The notes under the pieces were generated by a model. That model made no database searches. It saw only the letters and a list, made by a program, of their open reading frames with translations, and had not been told where the DNA came from. The translations under genes and the position numbers were made by a program. Below, in pieces: positions 38,208 to 59,211 of a DNA stretch of 64,000 nucleotides. This DNA is from Bacilli bacterium. GTDB taxonomy: Bacteria; Bacillota_I; Bacilli_A; RFN20; CAG-826. The stretch lies in assembly GCA_017447165.1 (NCBI GenBank), contig JAFSOD010000004.1, forward strand, positions 367,267 to 431,266, written 5' to 3'. Within the stretch, counting starts at the first letter, position 1, and each line of letters starts with the position of its first letter.

Positions 38208-38262
38208 TCATAATAAATACATAAAAGTGTAAAAACGCACCATTTTATTCATCTATATATGT

Positions 38263-38291
38263 TTGTCTTGCATATATATGCATGGTATGAT
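38263..38291 (+). promoter_or_regulatory. Promoter with 14-bp palindrome before the BspA-like gene
   Basis: TTGTCT (38263-38268), 17-bp spacer, TATGAT (38286-38291); the ATG at 38298 is 6 nt downstream, with no Shine-Dalgarno. The spacer holds a perfect palindrome TGCATATATATGCA (38269-38282), a possible operator. Confidence 0.6.
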
Positions 38292-38297
38292 TTTTTT

Positions 38298-41200
38298 ATG
38301 AAACATCGCATTTTTTTAATCTCGTTAGCCACATTTGGCTTACTTTTTTCGTCATGTTCTAATTCACTTCCTACAGGCTCATCAACTAGAGCAGATGACC
38401 CAGTAGAAATAGTGGATAACACAGTGACTCATGAATATAGTGAAGATTGGTCTTATGACAATTACAATCACTGGCATGAGGCTACCGATGGCTCTCACTC
38501 TATTAGTGATAAGGAGGGTCATAAATATCCTAAGGATTGGGTTATTGATTTTGATAGTACCGATTCTACATTAGGTAAAAAGCACCTTACTTGTGAAGTA
38601 TGTGGTTATACGACTTATGAAACAATCGATTTAAAACCTCATGTTCACACTTATTCTGATGAATATGTTGCAGACGCTGAATATCACTGGCATATGCCTA
38701 CTTGTGGACATCAGGATAGTGTTAATAAAGTTAGACACAACTTCATTCCCACAATTGTTGATGAAGCAAACTTTGAACATGGTGGACAAGTTAAAGAAGT
38801 ATGCGATGTTTGTGGTTACGCCGTTTATCACTTAACTGAGTTAAATCTCCATAATTATTCAGAAGCGTGGAGTAAAGATGAACACGGTCATTATCATCAA
38901 TGTTTAGATGAAGGCTATGAATCATTAAAGATTAACTACACCGCTCATGATTATAGCGAGCCTGAAATTATTAAACCTGCCACGGATAGTGAAGACGGGT
39001 TACAAGAAATGATTTGTAAGATTTGTGGTTATGCAAAGCAAGACAGTATTCCTGCCACTGAACATTTACACACTTATTCTAGTGAATATAGCCATAATGA
39101 AAATTATCACTGGCGTCAAGCTACTTGTGAACATAATTTAAAAGTCGATTATTGGCATCATAGATTTGGTAAAGAAGAAGTACTCTCTACTCCTACTTAT
39201 GAGTCTATAGGACTGGCTAGAAAAACTTGTACTGAGTGTGGCTATGTTAAAAACATAGAATTGCCTAAACTCTCATATCATTTCTCTGATATTTGGAGTA
39301 AAAATGAAACTCACCATTTCCACAGATGTATCAATGAAGGCCATGAAGACATAATAATTGATGAAGAACTCCATGATTTTACAGAGTGGACAATTAATAA
39401 AGTGGCCTCTTGTTCTTATGAAGGACATCAATATCGATTCTGTAAAGTATGTCACTACTATGAAGAACAAAATCTTCCACTTACTGACCATATTTATGAT
39501 TTAAGTTCGTGGAAATATGATAAAAACTATCACTGGCATGGAACGAAATGCGGCCATGATGTAGTTATTGATAAAGAAGAACACGAATTAACTTCTGAAG
39601 TCACACTAGAACCAACATTTGAGCGCAATGGGAAGCGCCATTATCAATGTGAAACCTGTGATTATAATTACGATGAATCTATTCCAAAATTAGAACACCA
39701 TTATTCAGATGAATGGTCTTATATAGATCAATCAGGACATTTCCATTACTGTACCGATCCTGGTTATGAGACTTATCACGATGCGACTAAGCCACATAAT
39801 TACGATGAGTTTACTATTGTTCCAAAGACTCAGTATGAAGATGGCTACAAATACGCAACTTGTACTGTTTGTGGTTATTACTATGAAGAAGTGACTGAGG
39901 AAAGTGATGCGACTAAATCACTTAAATATTTGACCTTCACAATTTATGAAGATAGTGAAGGCAAAACCGCCTCTGTTAATGGCTGTAATATTAGCTTAAT
40001 GAAGACTGATAATGTCCACAGCATTACCATTCCTAAAATATATAATGGTTATCCTGTAACCAAAATTGAACCTAGCGCGTTCCTTAATGTAGATATATTG
40101 CTTGATATTGTTATCCCTGACACTATTATCAATATCGGCTCTAGAGCGTTCTCTGGTTGTAGTGGATTAAATAATGTAGTGGTTCCTGATAGCGTGACAT
40201 ATATTGGTGAAGCTGCTTTTGAAAACTGTACTAGTTTAACAAGCTTAACTGTTCCGTTTATTGGCGTTACTGAAATTAATTATAACTATTTAAGAGCGAT
40301 TTTCTATAAGCCTTCTACTGCTGGCTCTCCTTTATATGTTGAGAATTTACGTGAACTCACTGTTACAAAGCAGACTACCGTTCCAAAATATGGACTTGCT
40401 TATATCACTAATTTAGTAAGTGTAACCTTTACAAAAGGATTAACTTCTATTAGTGAATATGGATTCTATTCCTGTACCTCTTTAGAAGATATTAGCTTTG
40501 CTAAAGATGTGACATATATTGGTGAGTATGCGTTCTATAAGTGTTCATCTATTAAGTCGCTTAATTTAGAAAGTAGTAATTTCTCTATTGGTGAAAACGC
40601 CTTTAATTTATGTGAGGGTTTAAATGAAATTAAGTGGCCAAATTGCACTAGTGGCCAAATTGGGGCAAATGCTTTCCGCTCTTGTGAAGGACTTAAAGCA
40701 ATTAGTATCTCTAGCGGAATTAACTCTATTGGTAAACAAGCTTTTGCGCTTTGCTCTAATATTTTAAGTATTGTCTTTGAAGGAGACCTAGGGGCTCTAG
40801 GAGATAATGTATTTAGTTCTTGTAATGGATTATCTTCCATTACCTTCTTAGGAGAGATTGATACAGCGACATTTATTGACACTGGTATTAGTGTCTTTAG
40901 TGCATCTTCTACTTCTATTAAGACTATCTCTTTGGTGTCTACTGGAAGTAGTCCATCAATCTTCACTCTATTTAGAACATCCACCAGTGAAACTGGTCAT
41001 TTCCCAAGTTCATTAGAAAAAGTTATCTATCTTAATTCTGATCCAAATATTCCTGCTGGAGAATTTATGGGCTTTACTGTTCCAGTTGAGTTCTCACAAG
41101 AATTAGGCTCAATTGGAGATTTCGCTTTTGCTAGTAGCACTATCTTCTCAACTTATACTGCTTCTGGCTCATCTATAGATATTGGGGCGTATGCTTTCTA

Positions 41201-42296
41201 TAACTGCGCTAACTTAACTGAAGCTAATCTCAACGTTCGCTCTATTGGAGAATATGCGTTCTGCCGATCAGGATTAAAAACCGTGAGCATTAACTGTGAA
41301 GAAATTAAGGCCTATACATTCGCATATTGCACTAATTTAACCACTGTTGTTATTGATGCGAACGTTAAAAATATTGATGCTGATGCGTTTGTTGGTTGTA
41401 CAAAATTAACCAATATTATTCTTAATAGTAGCTATTTATCCTTAGATGGTGGAGTGGTCTATAACAATAATAGAACCGAACTTGTCACCGTCTTACCAAC
41501 TTGTAAATCTAGCGCCTATATCGATCCTAGAGTAGAGTCTATTAGAGACGGCTTTATTAAACAAAAAGATAGCGTTACTGCCTACCAAGTAGACACTGAT
41601 TGTAATAACTTTAAATCAGCAAATGGATGTATTCTCTCTAAAGATGGCTCTAAGTTAATTAAGTCTCCTGGAGGAGCGAGTGCAACTAGCCTTTCTTTAA
41701 GTGGAGTCACTGAAATTGGCGAATACGCTTTATATAAATCTAACTACACTAGCTTTGCTATTACTGATAGCACGGTTAATGAAGTTGGTGCTTATGCTTT
41801 CTATGAAAGCAGTGCTTTAACGTCTATTTCCTTTGCATCTGCGATTACTGTAATTAATGAATATACATTCTGTGATTGTACTGCTTTATTAACAGTTCCA
41901 GATTTTAACGATGTTGAAGAAGTTAAAGAAGCTGGTTTCCGTTCTTGCTCAAAGATAGCAACTATCGTCATTGATAATTTAAAAGTCGCCGGAGATTATT
42001 CTTTCTATATGACGAAAGCTGATCCTAACACGATCATTTCTCATATTAAAACTATCGGTTATAGTGCCTTCTATAGCATTTATTATACAAATATTACTAC
42101 AATTACCATTCCAGCCTCTGTGACATTACTTGGTTACGCTATTTTCTATTTTAATAATACAAGTATTACTTATCGCTACGCTGGTACTAGTAATAAGCTT
42201 TTAAGCATTGAACGTATTACTCCACCTAGTAACCACAAAATAATAGAAGTAACTATTCTTAATTACCTAGGTTTTGAAGTTAGTATTGATATGTAA
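38298..42296 (+). CDS. Giant lipoprotein: Cys/His repeats followed by BspA-like leucine-rich repeats
   Basis: 1332 aa. Signal peptide MKHRIFLISLATFGLLFSSC ends at a lipobox-like FSSC. Residues ~50-550 hold about eight copies of a ~70-aa unit with HWH or HFH...C/G-H...H...T...G....C..CGY, which looks like a zinc-binding ribbon. Residues ~560-1320 are BspA-type LRRs (IGSRAFSGCSGLNNVVVPDSVTYIGEAAF...). BspA-type LRRs serve in adhesion or binding on the cell surface. Start chosen at MKHRIF, 13 codons inside the longest frame, from signal peptide and promoter. The second repeat-lipoprotein follows after 13 bp. Confidence 0.85.
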   Translation: MKHRIFLISLATFGLLFSSCSNSLPTGSSTRADDPVEIVDNTVTHEYSEDWSYDNYNHWHEATDGSHSISDKEGHKYPKDWVIDFDSTDSTLGKKHLTCEVCGYTTYETIDLKPHVHTYSDEYVADAEYHWHMPTCGHQDSVNKVRHNFIPTIVDEANFEHGGQVKEVCDVCGYAVYHLTELNLHNYSEAWSKDEHGHYHQCLDEGYESLKINYTAHDYSEPEIIKPATDSEDGLQEMICKICGYAKQDSIPATEHLHTYSSEYSHNENYHWRQATCEHNLKVDYWHHRFGKEEVLSTPTYESIGLARKTCTECGYVKNIELPKLSYHFSDIWSKNETHHFHRCINEGHEDIIIDEELHDFTEWTINKVASCSYEGHQYRFCKVCHYYEEQNLPLTDHIYDLSSWKYDKNYHWHGTKCGHDVVIDKEEHELTSEVTLEPTFERNGKRHYQCETCDYNYDESIPKLEHHYSDEWSYIDQSGHFHYCTDPGYETYHDATKPHNYDEFTIVPKTQYEDGYKYATCTVCGYYYEEVTEESDATKSLKYLTFTIYEDSEGKTASVNGCNISLMKTDNVHSITIPKIYNGYPVTKIEPSAFLNVDILLDIVIPDTIINIGSRAFSGCSGLNNVVVPDSVTYIGEAAFENCTSLTSLTVPFIGVTEINYNYLRAIFYKPSTAGSPLYVENLRELTVTKQTTVPKYGLAYITNLVSVTFTKGLTSISEYGFYSCTSLEDISFAKDVTYIGEYAFYKCSSIKSLNLESSNFSIGENAFNLCEGLNEIKWPNCTSGQIGANAFRSCEGLKAISISSGINSIGKQAFALCSNILSIVFEGDLGALGDNVFSSCNGLSSITFLGEIDTATFIDTGISVFSASSTSIKTISLVSTGSSPSIFTLFRTSTSETGHFPSSLEKVIYLNSDPNIPAGEFMGFTVPVEFSQELGSIGDFAFASSTIFSTYTASGSSIDIGAYAFYNCANLTEANLNVRSIGEYAFCRSGLKTVSINCEEIKAYTFAYCTNLTTVVIDANVKNIDADAFVGCTKLTNIILNSSYLSLDGGVVYNNNRTELVTVLPTCKSSAYIDPRVESIRDGFIKQKDSVTAYQVDTDCNNFKSANGCILSKDGSKLIKSPGGASATSLSLSGVTEIGEYALYKSNYTSFAITDSTVNEVGAYAFYESSALTSISFASAITVINEYTFCDCTALLTVPDFNDVEEVKEAGFRSCSKIATIVIDNLKVAGDYSFYMTKADPNTIISHIKTIGYSAFYSIYYTNITTITIPASVTLLGYAIFYFNNTSITYRYAGTSNKLLSIERITPPSNHKIIEVTILNYLGFEVSIDM

Positions 42297-42309
42297 GGAG
42301 GAAACAAAT

Positions 42310-44259
42310 ATGAAAACTAGCAAACTATTATTATCATTTTCTATCTTTGCTTCCTTAGTGCTAGCGGGTTGTTCTAATAACACTCCTGAACATGTCCATA
42401 CTGAAGCATATACCGAAGAATCTATTAGAATTGGGGCTACTTGTGAACAAGATGGCTTAAAAGATATCTATTCTTATTGTGCATGTGGTAAACACTTTAA
42501 AACCACTAAAGAGACAATCCCTGCTTATGGGCATAATTATGTGGCTTATGATTCTCATAACCAAGAAGCAACTTGTTCCCATAGCGGTATTGCCGATTCA
42601 ATGATTTGCACATATTGCCAAAACATTATTTATGATTATGTCGATCCAACTCCACATCACTATCTAGCTGAAACCAGTATTATTAATCGCGTTGAGGCAA
42701 CCTGCACAATAGCAGGTGGATACGATATTGTCCAATACTGCGAGCACTGTGAACATCCAGAAGTCGTTGAACACGTCACTATTGATCCACTAGGTCATGA
42801 TATGGTTCACTCTAGCGAGATTGAAGTGGAGTGTGGAGATATTCACGGGCACGTTGAAGGTGAAGTTTGTTCTAGATGTGGACTTGCTACATATTTATAT
42901 AACGGCTTTGGTGAACATAACTTAGTGTTCTCTAGAGAAACCATCTCTATTTCTCCTAGCTGTACTAGTACAGGATTGAAAAATATCTATGGCGTTTGTA
43001 CGCACTGCGGAAAAGAGTTCTTAATGGGTTCAGAATTAATTCCTGCAACAGGACATCACTTTGATTGGCATGAACGCGTAGAACCAACATGTAGTCAAAA
43101 CGGATCTACTGAATACTACTATTGTAGTTATTGTGGCTATTCCACTGGGAAAGAGGTTTTACCTCGACATGGACATAATCTTGGGGATCCAGTTTACGAT
43201 TTTGATTCAACTTATAATTACGTTTATGAGGACTATTACTGTAAAGAATGTGGCCTATTAATTAATCATTATGAACATATGTACGGCTCTGGCGGGGTAA
43301 GTATTTCTAAGGGGATTATTGAAGCCTGTACATATTCAAAAGTGGCATTAACTGTCGGTTCAAGTGATGTAATAGCGAAATCCACAAATGAAGATGTCGC
43401 GGTTTATATTGATGGATATGTCTACACGAAAAACTCTGGAACTTGCTTAATAGTATTTAGCGCTCCTGATAAAGCAGATAATTACTTAAAAGTAATAGTT
43501 AATAAACCGTACTTCTCATTTAATATGGATAATCTATATGTCACTAACACTTCAACCATTAGTGTTTCTACTAACTTAGACTGTGAATTCTTATTTATCT
43601 CTGGTAATGAGGATATTGCTTCAGTCAATGGCTTGGTGGTAACTGGCGTTAATGAAGGCACTGTCGGAATTACCGGATATGCGGTAGGAACAGACTTATC
43701 TTATTATCTAAATGCTAATGTTTTTGCAAATAGCATTAATGTGAAAGCTTATAGTGTAGTTTGTTTTACTGACTCCACATTAGATTTAAAAGAATACTTC
43801 ACAAGTACTTCTCCTGATAAATTTACTTATACAAGCAGCAATACGTCTGTCGCGACTATTAGTGAAGGTGGCATTATCAGTGGACTTAAAAATGGCACTA
43901 CCAATATCACTATTAATAGTCAAAAATGTGGATCTGCGACTATTTCGGTTACTGTTAGAGAAAAAGTTGCTAATTATATTACTGTGACTAGTAGTAATAT
44001 TCGCTCCTATTTTGATTTCGAATCGATATTTACTAGTACTTATTACCGTATCACTATGACTCTTAAGAGTGGCTATGAAGTTTACACTGCCGTTTCTGTA
44101 GAGTGTCACTTAACTTCTGGAGTAACTAGTTGGGGCAACACCTATTTAAGAGTGGAACCAGGTAGTAGAACTGATTACGCATACGATAATCGATATGATT
44201 ATTCAGGAGACTATTTCACTATTGGTTCAGTAAGTGGAACACTAGTTTATTATTCATAA
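42310..44259 (+). CDS. Lipoprotein with Cys/His repeats and bacterial Ig-like (Big-2) domains
   Basis: 649 aa. Signal peptide MKTSKLLLSFSIFASLVLAGC (lipobox LAGC). Residues ~30-340 carry about six to seven units with CxxC(G/Q/E) and spaced His (CACGKHF, CTYCQN, CSRCGL, CTHCGKEF, CSYCGYS, CKECGLL), related to those of the upstream gene. Then two Big-2-like modules follow (NEDIASVNGLVVTGVNEGTVGITGYA and NTSVATISEGGIISGLKNGTTNITI). Ribosome binding site TAAGGAGG is strong. Probably exported with the preceding protein. Confidence 0.82.
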   Translation: MKTSKLLLSFSIFASLVLAGCSNNTPEHVHTEAYTEESIRIGATCEQDGLKDIYSYCACGKHFKTTKETIPAYGHNYVAYDSHNQEATCSHSGIADSMICTYCQNIIYDYVDPTPHHYLAETSIINRVEATCTIAGGYDIVQYCEHCEHPEVVEHVTIDPLGHDMVHSSEIEVECGDIHGHVEGEVCSRCGLATYLYNGFGEHNLVFSRETISISPSCTSTGLKNIYGVCTHCGKEFLMGSELIPATGHHFDWHERVEPTCSQNGSTEYYYCSYCGYSTGKEVLPRHGHNLGDPVYDFDSTYNYVYEDYYCKECGLLINHYEHMYGSGGVSISKGIIEACTYSKVALTVGSSDVIAKSTNEDVAVYIDGYVYTKNSGTCLIVFSAPDKADNYLKVIVNKPYFSFNMDNLYVTNTSTISVSTNLDCEFLFISGNEDIASVNGLVVTGVNEGTVGITGYAVGTDLSYYLNANVFANSINVKAYSVVCFTDSTLDLKEYFTSTSPDKFTYTSSNTSVATISEGGIISGLKNGTTNITINSQKCGSATISVTVREKVANYITVTSSNIRSYFDFESIFTSTYYRITMTLKSGYEVYTAVSVECHLTSGVTSWGNTYLRVEPGSRTDYAYDNRYDYSGDYFTIGSVSGTLVYYS

Positions 44260-45174: not shown

Positions 45175-45432
45175 ATGAAAGTATCTTATCCGGCAATTTT
45201 TAGAGAAGATAAAGAAGATCCATCTTGGATTAATGTCTCTTTTCCTGATATTTGGGGAGGAGTGACTTGTGGAAAAGGGTTGGATGACGCTTTATATATG
45301 GCCGAAGATTTACTAAAGTTGATGTTAGAGACTGCTCCTATTCAATGTGAAAGACCAAGCTCTTTAGAAGAAACGCAAAAGAATTTCCCTAATGAGTTAA
45401 TTAAGATGGTTACAGTAGATATAAAAAGATAA
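45175..45432 (+). CDS. HicB-like antitoxin-type protein, no HicA visible
   Basis: 85 aa with the HicB fold signature: YPAIFRED at the start, VSFPDIWGGVTCGKGLDDALYMAEDLL in the middle. HicB normally neutralises the small RNase HicA next to it and represses its own gene. No HicA-like gene (~60 aa, basic, with a GSHR-type His) is seen on either side, and the C-terminal DNA-binding part is absent. TATAAT (45160-45165) lies 9 nt before the ATG. Could be a stand-alone regulator. Confidence 0.7.
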   Translation: MKVSYPAIFREDKEDPSWINVSFPDIWGGVTCGKGLDDALYMAEDLLKLMLETAPIQCERPSSLEETQKNFPNELIKMVTVDIKR

Positions 45433-45434
45433 TT

Positions 45435-45875
45435 ATGGATGACGAGATTAAAGAAGTATTACTTAAAATATTAGAAACTCCTTTTAACGGGAAAAAGGCA
45501 TTAGCGTTTAACGCCATTAACGCTTTTAAAGCTGATTTAGAGAATTATAATGTCCCCGCTGATAAAGCGATAGAATTTATCGATAATTTAACTGGCCTAT
45601 TTTCTTCTATAGATAAAAACATATCTAAAGAAGAATATGAGATTTATAACTATGCGACTAGCAATAAGATTAGCGAGGAACAATTTATTGATTTAGTAAA
45701 TAAGGCTAAAGAAGAAAAAACAAAAGAAAAAACTTTAAGGCGTTTAAGTAAATTTGATTTTGACTCTAAAAGTCATTTGCTTGTCTATGCGACAGTTATA
45801 ATGAGCGCGGATGGCCGCTATAAAAAAGAAGAAATCGACATCATCGATAGGATAATGTCGATCCATAATTTTTAA
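45435..45875 (+). CDS. TerB-like protein
   Basis: 146 aa, helical. The last 40 residues (HLLVYATVIMSADGRYKKEEIDIIDRIM) match the TerB / DjlA-N helical bundle, where the ADG...E..I segment binds metal. The N-terminal half has a second similar acidic stretch (SSIDKNISKEEYEIYNY). TerB proteins occur in stress and conflict systems, so it may belong with the genes that follow. It starts 2 bp after the HicB-like gene. Confidence 0.6.
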   Translation: MDDEIKEVLLKILETPFNGKKALAFNAINAFKADLENYNVPADKAIEFIDNLTGLFSSIDKNISKEEYEIYNYATSNKISEEQFIDLVNKAKEEKTKEKTLRRLSKFDFDSKSHLLVYATVIMSADGRYKKEEIDIIDRIMSIHNF

Positions 45876-45889
45876 AAATATTTTTTTGT

Positions 45890-46405
45890 TTATATAATCT
45901 CGTCGATAAGTCCGTATGCAAGGGCTTCTTCGGCACTCATCCAATTATCTCTTTCACAATCTTCGTGAAGTCTTTTTATAGTTTGACCGCTATTTTCAGC
46001 CATAATCTTTTCTAAAGATTCACGACGTTTTTGTAAATCATGAGCAATTTTTCTTAATTCGCTTTCTTTTTCCATCATTCCTGCTCTAGAGCTGATTAAT
46101 GGTTGGTGGATAAGGATACGACTGTGTTTTAAAGCAGTACGATGTCCTTTTTCTCCACAACTTAGTAAGAACGCTCCCATAGAAGCACATAAACCAGTAC
46201 ATGTAGTATATACAGGAGCTTGGATGTGTTTCATCGTGTCATAAATTGCTAGACCATGAACTATACTACCTCCATTAGAGTTGATATAGATTTGAATTGG
46301 TTCTTCATGAGATTCGCTATCAAGATCTAGAAGTTTAACGATAACGTTAATGGCGTTTATTTCATCAATCGTGCCATTTAAATTAATAATTCTTGTCTTA
46401 CTCAT
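45890..46405 (-). CDS. clpP: ClpP-type serine protease, active-site residues intact
   Basis: 171 aa, slightly shorter than housekeeping ClpP (~195). The catalytic triad is seen as Ser75 (GLCASMGAF), His100 (ILIHQPL) and Asp153 (CERDNWMSAEEA); GGSIVHGLAIYD is the handle/oxyanion strand. ClpP degrades proteins fed by AAA+ unfoldases. It lies 4 bp after a degenerate paralogue, like ClpP1/ClpP2 or ClpP/ClpR pairs. N-terminal axial-loop sequence is short. Last gene of a minus-strand operon with the TraG-like ATPase; likely not the housekeeping ClpP. Confidence 0.85.
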   Translation of the reverse strand: MSKTRIINLNGTIDEINAINVIVKLLDLDSESHEEPIQIYINSNGGSIVHGLAIYDTMKHIQAPVYTTCTGLCASMGAFLLSCGEKGHRTALKHSRILIHQPLISSRAGMMEKESELRKIAHDLQKRRESLEKIMAENSGQTIKRLHEDCERDNWMSAEEALAYGLIDEII

Positions 46406-46409
46406 AACC

Positions 46410-46952
46410 TTACTCCAATATCACATCAATAAGCCCGTATTTCTTGGCTTCTTCAATAGTGAACTCTCTATCTTTTTCGACATCGTTATGGATGACTTCG
46501 ACATCTTTAGATAATCTTTCAGCGAGAATCTTCTCAAATATATTTCTCACTTTGCTAGTTTCTCTAGCTTCGATTTCGACTTCGGTTTGTTGACTGCTTT
46601 CATTTGATAAATAACCAAATGGTTGATTTAAAGAAATAGTGGTGTGTTTTAAGCCATACTTCTTACCTTTAGAAGCCGCTGCGAGAATTAATGGAGCAAA
46701 GCCTCCAATATAGCCAATGCAGAAGACTGATATTGGGTTTTCAATATTTGCTAATACATCATATATTGCTACTGCATTTACAAAGTCATAGGTACGGCTA
46801 GATAAATAAATATTAATCTCGATATCTTTTGATTCTTTATTCCATCTCATAATATCTAAGATTATGGATGAAGCGCTTTCAGCGTCTAGTTTACTAGTGA
46901 TGAAAACGATATGGCTTTCTTCAATTTTGTCTTCAAGAGTTTTTTCTAGCAT
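46410..46952 (-). CDS. Catalytically degenerate ClpP paralogue (ClpR-like)
   Basis: 180 aa ClpP fold. At the nucleophile position the family GxAASM motif reads GYIGGFAP, so Ser is replaced by Gly84. The His position reads SLNQPFG, so His is Asn109. The acidic residue is kept (EKDREFTIEEAKKYGLID). The fold elements, including DFVNAVAIYD, are otherwise conserved. This mirrors ClpR subunits of cyanobacteria and plastids and the inactive ring partners known in some bacteria, so it probably forms a mixed ring with the neighbouring active ClpP. Confidence 0.82.
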   Translation of the reverse strand: MLEKTLEDKIEESHIVFITSKLDAESASSIILDIMRWNKESKDIEINIYLSSRTYDFVNAVAIYDVLANIENPISVFCIGYIGGFAPLILAAASKGKKYGLKHTTISLNQPFGYLSNESSQQTEVEIEARETSKVRNIFEKILAERLSKDVEVIHNDVEKDREFTIEEAKKYGLIDVILE

Positions 46953-46954
46953 AA

Positions 46955-48853
46955 TTATCTCCTTCTACTTCTGCCAAAGAAGAAATTGTCATCATCGTCA
47001 TCGTCTTCTCTAACTAAAGTGTAATAGTTTGGATCATCTAAATATCTTTCAGGAATGACAGCGCTATATTGATATTTGCTCTTACCTGGGTTTGCTAAGT
47101 TAACAGGAGCGAATTTTTCAAATGACTCGCCACGGAAATTCTTGAATATTCCTTCGTCCGCGCATTGATAACTTCTAACATAAGTAGATTTAATAACGTC
47201 CCATTTTATACGTTTAACAAACATCCATCCGGTTTCAATATTGTTTAATGTGCTAAGAGGGACAACTGGATAAGAAACAATCGAAGCCTCTTCACTATCT
47301 AATGAGGATTTAAGAGACTTAATGGTTTTTTGTCCGCATTCTTTTGAGAATCTTTCTTTAGTTTCCACACTTTGAGAACCTAAGAAAGTTTGTTGGTTAC
47401 AGTTATCAATAATGATACTGGCAACATTCTCTTTATAAACAGTATTTAATTGTTCATAAGATTGTAGATAAATGTGGAACCACATATTTCTACTTCTTGA
47501 AGTAGCAATCTTCACTTCAAAGTCAGGAATCGCTGGAATATTAGCGAATTCATCAAGCAAGAAGTGTAGAGGTCTACCTCCTGCAATACCGTCTTTTCTT
47601 TCCGCTTTTTCCGCTTTTTCTAAGAATTTTCTATAGACCCAGTTTAAGAATAATCCCGCAACTGCATTATCACTCTTATCATAGTCACGAGTAATAATGA
47701 ATAAAGCGATAGGTTGTTTAGAATCATCTAAGTCAATATTAGTTTCAGTGGTTAAGCCAAAGATGTGTCCGTTCATCCACTTACCAATCATAGATTGGCA
47801 GGTACTTAAGAAGCCTTTTTTAGTATTAGGAGCGGTCTTAGTGACAATCTCCATTTTATCAACTGCTTCTTTGGATTTTCCTTCCATAAATTGTTCTAAT
47901 TTATCTTGGTCGCTACCAGAATCTTCTCCATTAGTCTTGGAGGCTAAGGTATAAACATCATTCACGGTTTTGATATTAAACATATCTTTGGTGAAGTGTT
48001 TTTCTGGATTAATTGCATCTTCTAGCAAGGCTAAAATGATACCGTTAAAGAATTCTCTAGCACCGTTTTGCCAAGTTGGATCGTTAGATGATAGTTTATC
48101 ATCAGGGAACATTTGACTACAAAGTTGATTGACTAAAGATGTAACTTCAGCGTGGGCTAAAAATTTCACCCCATCAACATAGTTGTTAAATGCTTCATAA
48201 CTTGGGAAGGCAACATCATCAAAAACGATGTGATACCCATTAACGTATTCACTTTTATCGGAGGCTAGTGAATAAATTGGGTTTACTTCATTGCCTTTAA
48301 CAAATTTAGCTTCCTTGCCGATTTGAGGAATCTTTACTTGTTTTTCATAGATTTCTTCTAGTGGGTTCCAGCAGTTAGAATATTTAATGTTTTTAAAGTT
48401 AAGTAATTGAACTTTATAGCCATTATCAACTAAATGTTGGATGTTATGGAGATAAATCTCCCCTTTGGGGTCAGAAATGAAAATGTTTGGTTTGTTCTTT
48501 TGTGAAGTAATCGCACGGATTTGTGGTTCGATACAAGTAGTGGTTTTTCCTGATCCAGTAGTACCGATATATAACTCGTGCATTAAAGGAATGTAGTGAT
48601 AGCGTAAATGATATTTTTTCTTCTCTTCACTTGAGAGTTTTGAGTATTGATTATAATCAATACTTGTTTCTCCGTCAAAGAAATCACTAGCGAATGGGAA
48701 TCCTTTAATTTCTGTCTTATTTAAATCTTCATATAAACAGGTCTCAAAATTATAATCTTTAGATACTTGGTTATAGAGTAAAATTTGAGAATTCTCAACG
48801 TTCTTTTCAATATATCTAGATAAGACAATATCAGAATAAGACTTACGATTCAT
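46955..48853 (-). CDS. VirD4/TraG-family ATPase (T4SS coupling protein-like), orphan
   Basis: 632 aa. Walker A GTTGSGKTT (about residue 97), ISDPKGEIY, the WNPLEEIY segment and Walker B LHFLLDEFANIP (about residue 430) match the TraG/VirD4 coupling-protein family. No N-terminal membrane helices are seen; the protein begins directly with a soluble region, unlike classical VirD4. The tail is acidic then Phe/Arg-rich (EDDDDDDNFFFGRSRRR). No relaxase or other T4SS genes are present, so it may serve another ATP-driven process with its Clp neighbours. Confidence 0.8.
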   Translation of the reverse strand: MNRKSYSDIVLSRYIEKNVENSQILLYNQVSKDYNFETCLYEDLNKTEIKGFPFASDFFDGETSIDYNQYSKLSSEEKKKYHLRYHYIPLMHELYIGTTGSGKTTTCIEPQIRAITSQKNKPNIFISDPKGEIYLHNIQHLVDNGYKVQLLNFKNIKYSNCWNPLEEIYEKQVKIPQIGKEAKFVKGNEVNPIYSLASDKSEYVNGYHIVFDDVAFPSYEAFNNYVDGVKFLAHAEVTSLVNQLCSQMFPDDKLSSNDPTWQNGAREFFNGIILALLEDAINPEKHFTKDMFNIKTVNDVYTLASKTNGEDSGSDQDKLEQFMEGKSKEAVDKMEIVTKTAPNTKKGFLSTCQSMIGKWMNGHIFGLTTETNIDLDDSKQPIALFIITRDYDKSDNAVAGLFLNWVYRKFLEKAEKAERKDGIAGGRPLHFLLDEFANIPAIPDFEVKIATSRSRNMWFHIYLQSYEQLNTVYKENVASIIIDNCNQQTFLGSQSVETKERFSKECGQKTIKSLKSSLDSEEASIVSYPVVPLSTLNNIETGWMFVKRIKWDVIKSTYVRSYQCADEGIFKNFRGESFEKFAPVNLANPGKSKYQYSAVIPERYLDDPNYYTLVREDDDDDDNFFFGRSRRR

Positions 48854-48855
48854 GA

Positions 48856-49776
48856 TTACTTACCTCCTTTCACATTAAACCCAAGCTTTTTACTAGGGTC
48901 ACTAGAGGAATTGGTGAGTTCTTTCCACCATTGATTCTTATATTCATTGATACATTTCATCTTCTTATAGTAGTCGATATTATCAAGTAGCATAATCTCT
49001 ACAAAAGAATAATCAATATCATAGATATTATAATCAAGAATAATGTCTTGTTTAATGGAAGCGATTAATGAGAATGTATCGCTTGTTAATTGGTCATATT
49101 CTTTCTTTTTGATATTTGGAATATTGGTACTACCATTAGATAAGTAGGTGCTTAAAACGCATAAGTCAGAGAATAATTTTTTCTCTTTTTCCTCGCCTTT
49201 AATCTCAAAAAGATGCTTTAAGAAATATAACGAAGAAATATCACCCCAGAAAGCGCACTGTTTGAAGCGATAAATAGCAGCGTCGATATCTTTTTCGCAG
49301 CCTACTCCCGCGGCTAATAAAATAGCGACGGTTCTATTAATATCAACATCTCCATTAACAGAGGAATCGACCAGCTCTTTAAATCTGATGTCTGGATAAT
49401 ATGGTCTTAAATAACGGTACTCAAAGTAAATTTGATTAAAGTTCACTTTGTTAAATTTTTGATAAATATTCTTAAGCTTTAAAATCGCATCACATTTTAA
49501 ATATAAATATTGGCCGATCTTTGGAAAATCTCTATCTCCCTGATTGGCAAAAAATGCGTTAGCATCTTGAACAGTGCTTACGACAGTTAATTCGTCTAAT
49601 ACTAATCTCTTACATTCTTCAATTTCTTCCTTCGATAAAGAAAATACTCCACCGATGAAATCAATTAAATAACTAGAATCATTTTCTAGTTCAGTATTGA
49701 AATCATTGGAGAGCATTGTGGTCGTAATGAGAATACTAGACAAGGCTAAATACTTTTGTTTTTCACGCAAAACCAT
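48856..49776 (-). CDS. Helical protein with Sel1-like repeat, function unknown
   Basis: 306 aa, mostly helical. AVAILLAAGVGCEKDIDAAIYRFKQCAFWGDISSLYFL is one clear Sel1/TPR-like unit (about residues 150-195), usually a protein-binding scaffold. The rest is not recognised. It is the first gene of the minus operon sel1-like / TraG-like / ClpR-like / ClpP, with 2-4-bp spacing throughout, which implies one functional unit. Ribosome binding site AGGGGGT lies 7 nt before the ATG. Confidence 0.6.
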   Translation of the reverse strand: MVLREKQKYLALSSILITTTMLSNDFNTELENDSSYLIDFIGGVFSLSKEEIEECKRLVLDELTVVSTVQDANAFFANQGDRDFPKIGQYLYLKCDAILKLKNIYQKFNKVNFNQIYFEYRYLRPYYPDIRFKELVDSSVNGDVDINRTVAILLAAGVGCEKDIDAAIYRFKQCAFWGDISSLYFLKHLFEIKGEEKEKKLFSDLCVLSTYLSNGSTNIPNIKKKEYDQLTSDTFSLIASIKQDIILDYNIYDIDYSFVEIMLLDNIDYYKKMKCINEYKNQWWKELTNSSSDPSKKLGFNVKGGK

Positions 49777-49860
49777 GATATACCCCCTGTATTTTAAAAT
49801 TTCTTCTATATTTTACTAAGGTTAATATTTGTAGTAAAGTATTTGAGTGAGTGTGTTAAT

Positions 49861-50379
49861 ATGATAGATAATAAAGCTAGAGAAGAGCAGCTTTCCTTCA
49901 TCATAGATGATGTGATTCGTGAGAATTATGTTAAAGGTGATGAACTAGAAACAAGATTAAAGATTGACATCTATTTAGATGAGATCGCCAAAGAAATCGG
50001 TTCAAAAACCGCTGAGGAATTAAGAGATTATTTCTATTCTCAGAACTTTGATAAACTCAGTAAACTTTATGAGGCCGCTAAAGATAAACCAGCCCCATAT
50101 AAAAGAGGTATTGATATGAAAGAACGTGAATTATTAAAAAAGATTTGTTCTAACTCCAATGAACCAATCACAATTTATAACAAGCAAGGACAAGAATTTG
50201 TCTATAGCGTTTTAAAAAATTTTGAATTTGAAAAGAAACATTACGCTTTATTAGTCGACTTAGAAACTAGAAAGCAAAAATACTTCTGTTATGAATATGA
50301 CGAGAAGAGCAAAGAAGAAAAACTCGTTCCTGTCAAAGACGATAAATTAGTGGAGTTATTTTCCTTTTTAGGATTATAA
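49861..50379 (+). CDS. Protein with C-terminal DUF1292-like domain (paralogue A)
   Basis: 172 aa. The last ~75 residues (ITIYNKQGQEFVYSVLKNFEF, then KHYALLVDLE, then KLVPVKDDKLVELFSFL) have the strand pattern of DUF1292/YrzB proteins. The N-terminal helical part includes DIYLDEIAKEIG. No Shine-Dalgarno precedes the ATG; an in-frame TTG at 49843 is an alternative start. It is 1 bp upstream of a similar gene, and the two share the C-terminal plan, so they are likely old duplicates. Confidence 0.6.
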   Translation: MIDNKAREEQLSFIIDDVIRENYVKGDELETRLKIDIYLDEIAKEIGSKTAEELRDYFYSQNFDKLSKLYEAAKDKPAPYKRGIDMKERELLKKICSNSNEPITIYNKQGQEFVYSVLKNFEFEKKHYALLVDLETRKQKYFCYEYDEKSKEEKLVPVKDDKLVELFSFLGL

Positions 50380-50380
50380 A

Positions 50381-50938
50381 ATGGGCGGTCAACGTATAAA
50401 CGAAGTTTTTGATGCTGAAATCAGAAACTTAAATGGCAAAACATTAGAAGAATGTCGAGCAAGATTTAAAAGCAATATTAACGACCGACTTTATTTTGCT
50501 TATGAAGTTGAACAAAGAAAAGATTATGTGGAAGCATATCGAAGACTTTTAGATATGACTCTAGACGAATTATATCTTTTAAAAGAAAATCTTGAAGAGC
50601 TAACGAAACCAATAGTTTACCCTATAGATGTTCCTTTAAAAGAAAAAGCTTGGAAGAGCAAGATTTTTAGTGAATTTTATGTATATAACGGTTTAGGGGA
50701 AGAAGTGCTTTATCGAAAAGAGTATCAATTCACTTATAATGACGGCAAAAAATACGTCGTTTTAACTGATGTTAAAGAAGAAGACCATAAAGAAAATCCT
50801 CAATGCTATATTTGGGAATATATTGAAGCTAAAGATCCTAGCGAAGATAAGCTGGTAAAAGTAGCTGAACCTGCATTAGTGGAAGAATTAGAAAGATATG
50901 CAGAAAGATTGATGATGGGGTTACCAGAAGATGACTAA
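50381..50938 (+). CDS. Protein with C-terminal DUF1292-like domain (paralogue B)
   Basis: 185 aa. N-terminal helical region (MGGQRINEVFDAEIRNLNG...) followed by a DUF1292-like half: FYVYNGLGEEVLYRKEYQFTY, then KKYVVLTDV and KLVKVAEPALVEELERY. It parallels the upstream gene over the C-terminal 80 residues. It overlaps the RyR gene by 8 bp, so the three genes are coupled. Confidence 0.6.
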   Translation: MGGQRINEVFDAEIRNLNGKTLEECRARFKSNINDRLYFAYEVEQRKDYVEAYRRLLDMTLDELYLLKENLEELTKPIVYPIDVPLKEKAWKSKIFSEFYVYNGLGEEVLYRKEYQFTYNDGKKYVVLTDVKEEDHKENPQCYIWEYIEAKDPSEDKLVKVAEPALVEELERYAERLMMGLPEDD

Positions 50939-51221
50939 GAAAAAATATGTCCCTCATCCAGTGGATACTTCTACAGTTAAATTAGACCAAGACTTATTAG
51001 ATTTAACGGAAGTAATCGCAGAAAACGTTCATGAAGTTTGGTCAGCTTCTAGGATTAAAGAAGGTTGGACTTATGGAGAACAAAAAGATTCTGTTAAGAA
51101 AACCACGCCTTGCTTAGTTCCTTATGATGAACTACCAGAAATAGAAAAGCAGTACGACCGAGATACTGCTTTCGAAACAATAAAATTAATAATTAAATTA
51201 GGCTATAAGATTAATAAATAA
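50931..51221 (+). CDS. Standalone RyR (ryanodine-receptor-type) domain protein
   Basis: 96 aa, consisting almost wholly of one RyR domain: YVPHPVDTSTVKLDQDLLDL, then IAENVHEVWSASRIKEGWTYG, then KTTPCLVPYDELPEIEKQYDRDTAFETIKLIIKLGY. The family consensus (IAEN.HE.WA..R...GW.YG, P.LVPY..L...EK.YDR..A.ET.K) is fully met. In eukaryotes the domain is part of calcium-release channels; in bacteria it occurs in signalling and conflict-type proteins, probably binding a nucleotide-like ligand. It faces a large membrane protein that also ends in a RyR-type motif. Confidence 0.88.
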   Translation: MTKKKYVPHPVDTSTVKLDQDLLDLTEVIAENVHEVWSASRIKEGWTYGEQKDSVKKTTPCLVPYDELPEIEKQYDRDTAFETIKLIIKLGYKINK

Positions 51222-53732
51222 TCAGGCCTTTTTTTCATTTAAGGCAGAGAACACTTTATTCATTGTGTCTAAGTCATTGCCATAAACGAGTTGATGTAAT
51301 TTATCTTTCAACACACTGATTGGATAACCTTCTTTATTAAATAAGGCAATCATATCTTTATCTTTAGATAGTGTATCTTCTAAATCATATAAATCTTTAC
51401 ATGTAAGCATACAAATATGTTTGGATTTATTCGGATCTTTAGTGCTCCAATTCACCTTTTGTTTACCTTTTTTATTTGTGTATGGTTCGATAGTCTTTTT
51501 AAAAGAGTCAACATCCCACACTCCATAGAAATCAACAATAGAAGATACAGCGGTCCAACGATTATGTTCTAAGGCCACTAAAGCTTTAATGCGTTCATCA
51601 GGGTTAGTGTAGAATTCCATTTCTTTGAAGCTAGGGTTATCTTCAAATAGTGGATGATATTTTTCACTACCTTCATTTAACACGATTTCAAAGTCTTTAT
51701 TTAAGTCGCAGTGTAGTAACTTTAATTTTGGTCTTAGACAATAAATTGTCTCACTATTACTGATAGTCTCTTTTTTATCCATCATTAAGGAACGGATAAC
51801 AGCTTCTTTTTTATCGCAACCATTATAGGATTGAACGGCGCTAATACCGACACTTTCAATTTTCTTATAGTGGTTAGCAAGATAATCAGACATTAAAGCG
51901 TTTTCGCCAAAGACAACAACAGGGACTAACTTGCTCTCTTTCTTGTTGTTATTTAACAAATCATATTCATTGAATTGACTTTGTTTCATTGCAAATGAGG
52001 AATTACCTTGAATAAAGTTATCGGCGATTTCAGGAGTGGATATTCTAACGAAGATGACAGTTTTTCTTAACTTATCAATGTCTCTACAGTGTTTAAATAA
52101 CGCTTTTCTAAGTGATAAAGCAATTTCAATATCGGTCGAAGTATCAACCACGGAAATAACAAAGATTTCAAATCCATCTTTTTGGAAACGTTTTTTATCT
52201 TTATAAATTTCTTCAATATATCTACTGATTGCGGAGAAGCTTCTAATATCGTTACCGTTTTCTTCTGGGATGATGCGATATAGGAGTGGATTGCTATTTT
52301 TTTCCGTATAATCACTTCGGAAATATTTGACCGCATTTTCGGAATCTTGATCAACAATGTGATAGGTAACCTTATCTTTATTGTCTTTCCATAATTGATA
52401 GGCATAAGTCATTTTCTTTAAAATTGGACGATTAACTTTACCTAAACCAAAGAATGTGACGTGTAAAGATTGATTATCTTCTTCTGGTTTAGCTTGTAAT
52501 AATTTATTGATGTCGATAAATTTATCGATTTGGTTAGCGAGCATAAATTCTGAAGAAACCATATCGTATTCTGATAAAGCATTAACCATATGTAAGGTGT
52601 TATCAGAATAGTGATTGGTTAAGTCGATGTCTGGTCCGTGATATGTGAGATAGACTTTAAAAGCGTTTAAAGCGGCGAGGTCATAATCGGTAATTCTATA
52701 ACGTTTTGCATGTTTCTTAGATTTTAATTCTTCGTAATATTTATTAAAGTTATTCTTAAAGTCTTCTAAAGAAGCAGGACGTTTCTTTTTACAAAGGAAT
52801 CTTGAAATAGTGGCAAAATCATCATCATTAAGATAGTTGATGTCCTTTTGATTATTTGGGTTAATATCATCAAGTTTTTTTACAAGCTTGAAATACGCAA
52901 ACTTCTTTTTAATTCTCTTAAAGTGTCTATTTGATTCGATTGCTTGCTTAAATGTATTCGCAGTTTTTAATGATTCTTCATCATCAGAGAATAATCCCAG
53001 AACATAGATTTTATGTTTATTGAACCATCTATAAATTAGTCTTCCAATTAAATGGAAACGGGTGTTGAAATGTTTTCCTAATAAAATTAATCCTAAACCT
53101 TTGGAATAGTTTTCAATTTTAACTTCAAAACCTTTAGAGACAAGCATACTACGATATTCGGTACCATCTTGAGTCTTCTGAGAGCCTCGAGATAGAACCA
53201 TCGTAACCGCATGTCCGTCATTTTTAAGCGACTCACCAAGTCTAGCGGCAATTGTAACTTTTGGATCAGAAAAAATGTAGTAGGCATCTTTATTTCTTTT
53301 CGCTCTTTTAAAGCTTGTACATGCAACCGCTTTGATACCTCTGATAGTGAGAACGATCGCGGCAAATGATAACCAAATTAAAGCAAAAACGGAGGTGATA
53401 ATATAACCTATACCAAAGGCGACCATGAGGCCATTACTACTGGATAGGAAGGCATTAATTGGCGCTCTTTCGAAAGCGACCGCCATCATCTTTAATGCAT
53501 CAAAGATTGAAGAGGAAACAACCACCAATGGATGGAGGCTAGTTCCTTCTCCAGCAGCGGGATTAAAGTTAGCAAATAGGGCAAAACCTAAACATAAAAT
53601 GAATGCTCCAACCACTGGAATGTATTTATTTCCATAGAAGTTAAAAAAGCGAACTTTGACGAAATAGTTAACTAATGTGAATATGTTAAATACTGCAGAT
53701 AAAACGATTAAAACTACGGCCCATGTTTCCAT
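51222..53732 (-). CDS. Membrane protein with Rossmann (TrkA-N-like) domains and C-terminal RyR-type motif
   Basis: 836 aa from the ATG at 53732, which has GGAGG 9 nt upstream; an upstream in-frame start would add 14 residues. Residues 1-150 hold about four membrane segments. Then come nucleotide-binding-like segments (YIFSDPKVTIAARLGESLKN; VTFFGLGKVNRPILKK; VVVFGENALMSDYLANHY), like TrkA-N/RCK sensors of ion channels. The C-terminus has LVALEHNRWTAVSSI, the core of bacterial RyR domains. It may be a ligand-gated membrane sensor or channel. It converges on the standalone RyR gene with no gap. Confidence 0.7.
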   Translation of the reverse strand: METWAVVLIVLSAVFNIFTLVNYFVKVRFFNFYGNKYIPVVGAFILCLGFALFANFNPAAGEGTSLHPLVVVSSSIFDALKMMAVAFERAPINAFLSSSNGLMVAFGIGYIITSVFALIWLSFAAIVLTIRGIKAVACTSFKRAKRNKDAYYIFSDPKVTIAARLGESLKNDGHAVTMVLSRGSQKTQDGTEYRSMLVSKGFEVKIENYSKGLGLILLGKHFNTRFHLIGRLIYRWFNKHKIYVLGLFSDDEESLKTANTFKQAIESNRHFKRIKKKFAYFKLVKKLDDINPNNQKDINYLNDDDFATISRFLCKKKRPASLEDFKNNFNKYYEELKSKKHAKRYRITDYDLAALNAFKVYLTYHGPDIDLTNHYSDNTLHMVNALSEYDMVSSEFMLANQIDKFIDINKLLQAKPEEDNQSLHVTFFGLGKVNRPILKKMTYAYQLWKDNKDKVTYHIVDQDSENAVKYFRSDYTEKNSNPLLYRIIPEENGNDIRSFSAISRYIEEIYKDKKRFQKDGFEIFVISVVDTSTDIEIALSLRKALFKHCRDIDKLRKTVIFVRISTPEIADNFIQGNSSFAMKQSQFNEYDLLNNNKKESKLVPVVVFGENALMSDYLANHYKKIESVGISAVQSYNGCDKKEAVIRSLMMDKKETISNSETIYCLRPKLKLLHCDLNKDFEIVLNEGSEKYHPLFEDNPSFKEMEFYTNPDERIKALVALEHNRWTAVSSIVDFYGVWDVDSFKKTIEPYTNKKGKQKVNWSTKDPNKSKHICMLTCKDLYDLEDTLSKDKDMIALFNKEGYPISVLKDKLHQLVYGNDLDTMNKVFSALNEKKA

Positions 53733-53890
53733 AATGTATAGCCTCCAATAGATTATTGTATCAAAAATGCACACGCAAATGAAAATATTGATTAGCAGTC
53801 AAAGTGTTGCTTAATAGCAATTTAAGGGACATATTGTTAGCAGTGCTAACTAATATATGCTTGCTTCTTCACTGTCTTCTATTTATCATA

Positions 53891-54445: not shown

Positions 54446-54480
54446 CTATCATATTTATCAAATAAATGGGAGGGGGAAAT

Positions 54481-56763
54481 ATGAAGAAAACTTACGAAAT
54501 AAAATGGCAAAATGATTTAGTTAATCAAATGCCGGCTTATACCGCTTTTGCTTTTGAGGGGAACGTTAATGACTTGCAACCGGTTCTTGTGGGAGAGAAA
54601 TATGAATATCTTCCGATGAGTGAATGTATTGCAAAGTTATTACAAGATAAGTACTGCGTAGTATATTTTGATCACACTAAAAGAGGTGTGAGACAAATTC
54701 AACCAAAGCAACCCGCTAAAGAAGAAAAGGAAAAACAGGAAGAGGAATTAGACGCCGTATTTAAGACTTTTACCTTCGCGGAAAAATACGTCGTAAATGA
54801 AAAGGGCGAAAGAATTCCAAATCCAAACATTGAACTATTTAAGAAGTTCTATACCAAAGAGTATGCTGAACAAATTAGAAATGATAGTGATACCTCTTTG
54901 CAAGGCGATATGACTATTGATATGCGTCGTATTTTAGATGCGATGAAAGATTATGGTGAGCACGTTGAAACTGTTATTGAAGAAAATGAAGTTAACGGAG
55001 TCATCACTAAAAAGGTATCTTATAAACCAAAATGTGAAGAAGATACCTGTTATAAAGATACAAAGCCATTCTTGTTCGTGTTACCTGAAGTTTCTAGATT
55101 TATGACTAACCCAGGTCAACCAAGCACTCCAGAGAATTCGGTTTTAATGACTTTATTTGGTGCTACTTTATTAAATGAGACACCAGCTAGAGTAATACTT
55201 ATCGTTGATAAGATGAATGACTTACCAGTCTGGTTTGAAGCAGAAGGAAGTAATCCTTCTATGAAAAAGAGCTTTGTTCCTGCTCCTAATGCCGAATTTA
55301 GAGAAACATATTTCAACTTAGAGTTATTAGAGGTTATGGATAACGCGAAGGATAACGAAAAAGGCTTACTTAAATTCAGCGCCTATACCGATAAATATTC
55401 GTTAAGAAAGTTAGAACAATTAAAACGTTATATTCTTTCTAGTAGCGATAAAAAAGAAAAAGACCTAAACCATATTGATAAAACAGTGTTCGCTTTTGAA
55501 TTTGGTATTAATGAGAACCCATGGCTTAAACCAGAGACATTCTCAAAAATTAAAAATTTGAACACAGAGATTTCTAAAAGCATCAGTGGTCAAAGCCACG
55601 TTATTAATCAAATTTCTACAACCTTAAAAGCAGCGGTTACTGGAGTTAACTCATCTAAGAGTACGGACCGTAAACCAAAAGCTGTCTTCTTCTTAGCAGG
55701 ACCTACTGGTACTGGTAAAACTGAGATGTGTCGTCAACTTGCCTCCATCTTATTTGGTAAAGAAGACAAGATGATTAGATTTGATATGTCTGAATTTAGA
55801 GAAGCCCATAATGAATCTCGTTTATTTGGTGCTCCTCCAGGATATGTTGGTTATGATGAGGGTGGCGAATTAACTAAAGCTATTAAAGAAAATCCGTTCT
55901 CCTTATTGCTATTTGATGAAATTGAAAAAGCTCATCCAAAAATTTGGGATAAATTCTTACAAATTTTAGGTGATGGACGGGTGACTGATGGAAGAGGAGA
56001 AACAGTTTATTTCTCTGAATCTATTATCGTCTTTACTTCTAACCTTGGTATTACCTCTACTGTTAATACTGATGATCCAAAAGTAAAAGCGGTTTATGAA
56101 TCCGCAAAAGAATTATTGCCAGAAGAATATAAGAAATATGAATCTTTAACTGACGAGAATGAAAAAGAAAAATCTCGCGAAGAGATGGAAAGATTATTAA
56201 CTATTATCGTCGACTATGAAGGTATTTCTATTAAAGTGAAAAAAGAGAAATATTTCGAATACATGCTTAAGGATGATAGTGAACACCTTAAAACCATTTC
56301 TGCTTATTTCTCTAGATTTGTTACCAAGATTGTTAAAAACCGTATTACTAGATATTTCGATAGTATTTCTAGAAGAGAAATATTAGGACGTATCGGTGAT
56401 GCGAATATTATCGTTTATAACTTCATTGATGAAGACATCGCCGTCGCAATTATGGAAAATACCATCAAGAAGTTCGCTAATTATTTATTAAACGATAACG
56501 TTATTCCACTTCGCTTAACTGTTTCTAAAGATGCTAAGGACGCAATTATTGAAAAAGTCAGACAACCTGAAGTTTTAGATTTAGGTGGACGTGGTATTAA
56601 TATGACCACTGAAAAGATAATTTCTAGTGCGGTTGGTAATTACTTATTTAAGATTGGTGAAGATCTTGTTGGAACAAGTGGTTCTCTATCTACCGACGAA
56701 GTTCGCAGTGGCGAATTAGTTTACGATAAAGAAAGAGATTATTTCTCAATTAAAGCTGTCTAA
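54481..56763 (+). CDS. AAA+ unfoldase, ClpB/ClpA D2-type, with unusual N-terminal half
   Basis: 760 aa; ATG at 54481 follows GGGAGGGGG. Residues 1 to about 370 are not a Clp-N or D1 domain and are unrecognised. Then one D2-type AAA+ module: Walker A GPTGTGKTE (~407), pore loop GAPPGYVGYDEGG, Walker B LLLFDEIEKAHP (~476), sensor-1 FTSN, and sensor-2 LGGRGINM. A ~100-aa insertion (VNTDDPKVKAVYES...) sits before the arginine-finger region (REILGRIGDANIIVYNF). No IGF/LGF ClpP-docking tripeptide is obvious. Likely an ATP-driven remodelling engine of the system. Confidence 0.85.
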   Translation: MKKTYEIKWQNDLVNQMPAYTAFAFEGNVNDLQPVLVGEKYEYLPMSECIAKLLQDKYCVVYFDHTKRGVRQIQPKQPAKEEKEKQEEELDAVFKTFTFAEKYVVNEKGERIPNPNIELFKKFYTKEYAEQIRNDSDTSLQGDMTIDMRRILDAMKDYGEHVETVIEENEVNGVITKKVSYKPKCEEDTCYKDTKPFLFVLPEVSRFMTNPGQPSTPENSVLMTLFGATLLNETPARVILIVDKMNDLPVWFEAEGSNPSMKKSFVPAPNAEFRETYFNLELLEVMDNAKDNEKGLLKFSAYTDKYSLRKLEQLKRYILSSSDKKEKDLNHIDKTVFAFEFGINENPWLKPETFSKIKNLNTEISKSISGQSHVINQISTTLKAAVTGVNSSKSTDRKPKAVFFLAGPTGTGKTEMCRQLASILFGKEDKMIRFDMSEFREAHNESRLFGAPPGYVGYDEGGELTKAIKENPFSLLLFDEIEKAHPKIWDKFLQILGDGRVTDGRGETVYFSESIIVFTSNLGITSTVNTDDPKVKAVYESAKELLPEEYKKYESLTDENEKEKSREEMERLLTIIVDYEGISIKVKKEKYFEYMLKDDSEHLKTISAYFSRFVTKIVKNRITRYFDSISRREILGRIGDANIIVYNFIDEDIAVAIMENTIKKFANYLLNDNVIPLRLTVSKDAKDAIIEKVRQPEVLDLGGRGINMTTEKIISSAVGNYLFKIGEDLVGTSGSLSTDEVRSGELVYDKERDYFSIKAV

Positions 56764-56766
56764 TTT

Positions 56767-59210: not shown

Positions 59211-59211
59211 T

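Follow-up and report, generated by a model that had tools for sequence, protein, structure and literature searches.

A duplicated ClpP, a soluble VirD4/TraG-like ATPase and a Sel1-like linker: a candidate compartmental protease in Bacilli

What does a ClpP without its catalytic residues do beside an intact one, in an operon with a TraG-like ATPase? The question is raised by a 64,000-nucleotide stretch of DNA (hereafter, the window) from a small-genome Bacilli bacterium (1.3-Mb assembly, 96% complete). The original prediction saw here an active ClpP and a catalytically dead, ClpR-like paralogue, and read them as a dedicated pair. VirD4/TraG motors are best known for moving DNA, their normal task. 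The features discussed below are the following.

45435-45875, plus strand: small TerB-like protein (TerB E=0.0017, below cut-off); recurrent neighbour
45832-45864, minus strand: terminator-like hairpin just 3′ of the last operon gene (14 pairs, pattern scan)
45890-46405, minus strand: active ClpP, 171 aa, Ser-His-Asp (Pfam CLP_protease 197 bits; cut-off 20 bits)
46410-46952, minus strand: dead ClpP paralogue, 180 aa, Gly-Asn-Asp (CLP_protease 117 bits)
46955-48853, minus strand: soluble VirD4/TraG-like (FtsK-HerA superfamily) ATPase, 632 aa, Walker A GTTGSGKT, Walker B LLDEF
48856-49776, minus strand: F2, Sel1-like repeat linker, 306 aa, C-terminal tail ...KKLGFNVKGGK
50931-51221, plus strand: small RyR-domain protein (Pfam RyR 122 bits); recurrent neighbour
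51222-53774, minus strand: F7, 850 aa, hydrophobic N-terminus, no Pfam match; membrane anchor and RyR-like C-terminus by eye only

An active and a dead ClpP

Read along the minus strand, the operon runs from F2 through the ATPase to the dead and then the active ClpP. Successive genes are separated by 2, 2 and 4 bases, every start is preceded by a ribosome-binding site, and both clpP frames lie where they had been predicted. Three hairpins were found in the region against 1.9 expected, so the terminator-like signal is weak. On alignment to E. coli ClpP, the product of 45890-46405 retains Ser97, His122 and Asp171 in register, as found in S14 peptidases. In 46410-46952 Ser is replaced by Gly and His by Asn, Asp is unchanged, and the Gly-rich strand is lost (T-Y in place of G67-G68). 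Both triads had been called correctly from the bare sequence, and the alignment removes the concern that they were misplaced. The active ClpP begins at the first core strand, so that the N-terminal axial loop seen in housekeeping ClpP is missing; mature E. coli ClpP positions 1-20 are gaps in all nine active partners. By its sequence, the active subunit is an S14 peptidase and not a canonical housekeeping ClpP. An AlphaFold model of the dead copy, built with five homologues, has the complete ClpP fold (pLDDT 87.6), and its best PDB matches are M. tuberculosis ClpP1P2 (TM about 0.9).

The active/dead pair was found in nine genomes, a recurrence that goes beyond coincidence. All nine active copies carry the S-H-D triad. 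The dead copies, intact open reading frames in every case, have all lost the His, and none has the full triad (GND, NRG, SRN, GEG, GEG, DSE, GSQ, GIN and GSD at the three positions). Missing that triad, the dead copy classes as ClpR-like, a term to be read as likeness of presumed function only, the 30-row ClpP tree containing no cyanobacterial or plastid ClpR sequences. In this tree all nine dead copies group together (100/100), as do their nine active partners (98/98); identities to the window's own copy are 33-41% for the dead and 53-65% for the active copies. Since each kind is monophyletic, the pair is, on this tree, the product of one old duplication of which both copies have been retained in nine genomes. 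Pocket position 92 is aliphatic in eight of the nine dead copies and in none of the nine active partners, a contrast between two clades rather than among 18 independent cases; the pocket positions compared are those that we take to be defined by ClpP-ADEP structures. The contrast suggests that the dead ring may serve as docking face, in a division of labour with the active copy. Because of the pocket conservation, we lean towards two stacked homo-rings rather than a mixed hetero-ring.

Beyond these two genes, the host genome (96% complete) has no PF00574 match. The original prediction had counted against itself the case of their being the only ClpP genes and forming a standard housekeeping complex; the only ClpP genes they are, the housekeeping role does not hold. 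ClpP (PF00574) is missing in 16 of 19 genomes of the host genus and in 168 of 196 of the host family, with a patchy spread within both, and is therefore accessory in the family. The single PF10431 protein of the host (L052) is ClpB-like, with no IGF-type segment between the TSN and FKPEFLN motifs. The Hsp100s readable in G013, G187, G063, G107, G121 and G023 are ClpB types, likewise devoid of the segment; G028, G048 and G110 have no PF10431 match. Two matches in G135 are a contig-end fragment without a judgeable loop region and Lon, and a weak match in G071 is a different AAA protein, sequence kin of ClpB D2, with no readable loop. Thus none of the readable Hsp100s of carriers in the host family is a Clp unfoldase that has a loop for binding ClpP. 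Since most carriers are draft MAGs of 84-97% completeness, a missing ClpX or ClpC in one of them is weak evidence; the lack of an IGF-loop Hsp100 as a pattern across carriers is the stronger argument. Together with the absence of ClpP from most relatives, it makes the pair accessory and non-housekeeping, and an ordinary housekeeping Clp system was rejected on both grounds. Genus g6 differs from most of the family in retaining a canonical ClpP, N-terminal axial region included, beside pgk and tpi (L042:9553-10152, L045:9879-10469).

A soluble ATPase and linkers with a docking-type tail

The dedicated-pair reading stands as far as it went (active and dead copy, operonic with a TraG-like ATPase, non-housekeeping); it had overlooked the fourth gene, 48856-49776, with its docking-type tripeptide tail, and a wider set of ClpP/TraG-like operons. 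We distinguish three types. Type A comprises F2, the ATPase and the dead and active ClpP. In type B (G063, G107, G121, G152, G195), an F5 linker and the ATPase occur with just one ClpP, an active one, in the neighbourhood. Type C combines ClpP, an F31 linker and the ATPase, in G023 and G074 of the host family and in G400, G604, G654, G488 and G443 of other families. The sister types, with a single ClpP and other linkers bearing such tails, thus reach other Bacilli families. ATPases of A, B and C form one clade each in a tree whose long branches do not settle a common ClpP-linked ancestor.

Linkage within type A is tight. Strong matches to the F2 profile (A1) occur in exactly eight of the 196 family genomes, the same eight that have adjacent dead and active ClpP (Fisher 2e-14, relatedness ignored). 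The order differs in G187 (pair, then F2, then ATPase), and in G071 the ATPase and the pair are separated by a gene of no known kind. When the genomes of 84,980 species were scanned, F2 turned up at 11 loci, of which some are in records that carry the label Clostridia or Acholeplasmatales. In G542 an active/dead pair lies close to a housekeeping clpP-clpX-lon cluster, and F2 is elsewhere (L081), with no ATPase beside it; G543 has F2, the ATPase and one ClpP. In G540 (Clostridia-labelled) and G541, whose contig ends near the ATPase, F2 and ATPase have no local ClpP, and the sole ClpP, encoded elsewhere, is of housekeeping type.

The neighbouring ATPase is TraG-like, as predicted: it scores 131 bits with Pfam T4SS-DNA_transf and 95 bits with TraG-D_C, has the T4CP core, and reaches 249.8 bits with the NCBIfam CD1115 family, narrowly under the cut-off of 250. 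Its profile has no match among PDB sequences at 1e-3. The maximum 19-residue hydropathy before Walker A is 0.17 in the window's protein versus 1.6-3.0 in unlinked T4CPs; those of the host family with a measurable N-terminus carry transmembrane segments in this range, one unlinked open reading frame (L176) being probably truncated. None of the 19 type A-C ATPases (17 ClpP-linked plus two beside F2 only) has a membrane-helix-like segment, their maximum 19-residue hydropathy being at most 1.67, and the value before Walker A is at most 0.51 in the 17 in which the motif was found. Two F5-type ATPases of G187 are also soluble although no ClpP is nearby. They lie at L178 (G187:C21), one adjoining an F5 linker, in a contig with no ClpP match; the type A pair is elsewhere in that genome.

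The eight pair genomes contain no PF03432 (MobA/MobL-type) relaxase and no VirB4-type PF12846 match over cut-off; sub-cut-off PF12846 matches are probably FtsK. A conjugation or phage element was rejected on these grounds. F2 has no plasmid or IMG/VR match, and F31 none to plasmids or phages. The dead ClpP profile matches 29 IMG/VR loci which, at 24-31% identity, are likely ordinary phage ClpP. With PHROGs, the matches of the active ClpP are mostly head-maturation proteases, and the other parts have none.

The F2 profile matches Sel1 proteins in the PDB (6ork, E=2e-8 over profile positions 137-192). In fold searches, the top Foldseek matches are also Sel1 proteins, with E above 0.01, and VIA gives a Z of at most 7.1, neither result being decisive. 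The AF2 model has a pLDDT of 84.9, and residues 290-306 are the only stretch under 50. Within this predicted disordered tail, at residues 298-300, lies LGF. Clp ATPases dock on ClpP through an (L/I/V)-G-(F/L) motif that binds pockets between ClpP subunits (PMC8745299), and the F2 tail looks like this tripeptide of Clp unfoldases, a comparison of short matches in which MGF, FGF and YGF variants occur beside the window's LGF. The Gly-Phe is invariant in all nine F2 homologues (33-39% identity), whose tails read LGF, MGF, IGF, FGF or VGF. F31 tails have YGF (7/7), and F5 tails LGL, MGL or IGL. All linkers whose end was read have a hydrophobic residue followed by Gly-Phe or Gly-Leu near the C-terminus (23/23, homologues not being independent), as against 20 of 350 other neighbourhood proteins in their last 18 residues (7 of 350 for the Phe form). 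F31 and F2 have the N-terminal and Sel1 part in common (hhalign 95%, E 2.6e-8); no relation of F5 to F2 or F31 was detected, and proteins of different kinds thus bear such a tail.

A predicted protease machine and its alternatives

On balance we think it probable that the four genes encode one ATP-driven compartmental protease in which ClpP is coupled to a non-Clp motor; of the exact geometry we are less sure. We infer assembly, docking, a motor-facing ring and protein translocation by the motor, as follows. Active and dead ClpP would assemble as a two-ring barrel, in which the active subunits would probably form the catalytic ring and the dead ones the docking ring. The hydrophobic-Gly-Phe tail of F2 would enter the hydrophobic pockets of ClpP, like the IGF loops of ClpX, ClpA and ClpC, and so couple the barrel to the VirD4/TraG-like ring ATPase. 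This motor would feed substrate proteins into the barrel, replacing the Clp unfoldase. The tight operon, the co-occurrence of F2 with the pair, the lack of ClpP in most relatives and of an IGF-loop Hsp100 among those read in carriers, the soluble motor and the conserved tail of the linkers speak for such a machine, as does G540, with F2 and ATPase away from the one housekeeping-type ClpP of its genome. Counted against it are the extra F5-type ATPases of G187, the fact that VirD4-type motors are known mainly for DNA, and the FtsK-gamma-like (wHTH) proteins encoded downstream of some type C operons.

The last two points speak for an ATP-independent peptidase of the ClpPs gated by F2, the VirD4-like ATPase working separately in moving DNA and being regulated or turned over by the protease. 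The active ClpP, devoid of its axial loop, might indeed have a pore that is open without an unfoldase. We consider this unlikely: each of the three operon types includes the linked ATPase, which has no membrane anchor and comes with no PF03432 relaxase and no VirB4 over cut-off, and ring motors are usual with ClpP.

Somewhat less likely still is a defence system in which the motor tracks along DNA, strips off bound proteins (e.g., of phage or plasmid) and hands them to ClpP. The VirD4-type motor and the FtsK-gamma-like neighbours would suit it, as would the patchy distribution and the TIR-NACHT/NPHP3 and TIR-methyltransferase genes near some copies; yet TIR genes lie beside a minority of loci only, PADLOC gives nothing but weak HerA and mad8 matches to the ATPase, and no copies were found in phage, plasmid or viral contigs.

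That a reduced genome simply keeps its housekeeping ClpP and a decaying duplicate beside the relic of a conjugative element would agree with these being the host's only ClpP genes and with the adjacent T4CP-like gene, but is very improbable given that most relatives lack ClpP and that the ATPase has no transmembrane helices and no accompanying PF03432 relaxase. It is contradicted by the dead copies, which are intact in 9/9 cases and descend together as one old clade, and by the recurrence of the operon with F2 in distant genomes.

To return to the coupled machine, we know of no ClpP driven by anything other than AAA+ Clp unfoldases. The ClpP1P2 heteromers of M. tuberculosis and Chlamydia also combine two different ClpP paralogues, M. 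tuberculosis ClpP1P2 being the best structural match of the dead copy; in them both paralogues retain the triad and the motors are ClpX and ClpC. VirD4/TraG T4CPs (the NCBIfam CD1115 family) have the ATPase core sequence in common with the window's protein, which differs in that it lies beside ClpP, lacks a transmembrane N-terminus and is accompanied by neither a PF03432 relaxase match nor a VirB4 over cut-off. HerA-containing defence systems (PADLOC HerA, mad8) show a weak likeness in the ATPase, and their other components were not recognised here. An active subunit with an inactive paralogue is likewise found in the ClpPR of plastids, apicoplasts and cyanobacteria, with a P-ring and an R-ring in plastids and homoheptamers of each in apicoplasts (PMC7966870). 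ClpPR works with ClpC or ClpX, and descriptions of it include neither a VirD4-like ATPase nor a Sel1 linker; here, in contrast, the partners share one four-gene operon, in Bacilli mostly without ClpP. ClpXP, ClpAP and ClpCP share the ClpP core and dock through the (L/I/V)-G-(F/L) tripeptide (PMC8745299), whereas here its putative counterpart sits at the C-terminal end of a Sel1-like protein distinct from the motor, and the motor belongs to the FtsK-HerA superfamily.

Tentatively, with a little less than even confidence, we propose that ATP-dependent compartmental proteases include a new class whose ClpP would be driven by a ring motor of the FtsK-HerA superfamily (VirD4-like) instead of an AAA+ Clp unfoldase, via a separate linker with an IGF-type tail tripeptide; in the pair type, a duplication would have divided ClpP into one subunit for catalysis and a dead one for docking. 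If true, self-compartmentalised proteases can switch motor superfamily, the docking tripeptide has a natural occurrence on a separate protein, and the role of a dead ClpP becomes testable in a minimal two-paralogue system. No description of such a ClpP/VirD4-like machine was found in the open-licence PMC literature, outside which subscription journals and preprints mostly lie; searches with RyR and TIR gave the same result.

Genes around the operon

RyR, TerB-like and F7 genes recur around type A. Relatives of the RyR protein adjoin the module in L035, L038 and L039, and TerB-like relatives occur in L035 and L039. A relative of F7, which is a possible associated sensor, lies immediately upstream of F2 on the same strand in G028 and G135. 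TIR-containing STAND-like proteins are encoded near L035, L037 and L164; L035 also has a gene for a TIR-methyltransferase. The RyR, TerB-like and TIR neighbours hint at a regulated stress, conflict or anti-phage role. PADLOC found no match beyond the weak ones to the ATPase (HerA, mad8; E 2e-7 to 0.009).

Two of the TIR proteins have composite architectures. At L037:769-4590, directly upstream of a type A operon, a 1273-aa protein fuses TIR, an NPHP3-type NTPase, TPR and an APH-kinase-like part; at L164:2260-6168, near a type C operon, a 1302-aa TIR-NACHT-LRR protein has an NLR-like architecture.

Further genes of the window lie on the plus strand. A run at 54466-63783 encodes a ClpB-D2-like AAA protein (765 aa), two proteins of about 635 aa of no known kind, a single-cluster radical SAM protein and a DO-GTPase2 protein; it is possibly one of the GTPase-centric conflict systems described in PMC7159879, a paper that does not mention ClpP, VirD4 or RyR. 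An AAA protein akin to the one in this run is encoded near the type C operon of G023 (L041). At 49843-50938, divergent from the operon, two adjoining genes encode proteins with DUF1292-like C-termini. A protein with a HicB-like antitoxin domain (32 bits) is encoded at 45175-45432; in L039 a relative forms one portion of a larger protein next to the module. Finally, the genes at 38259-44259 encode two large proteins (1345 and 661 aa) that resemble lipoproteins and contain repeated modules rich in His and Cys (HWH...CxxCGY), followed in the first by LRR-like repeats.
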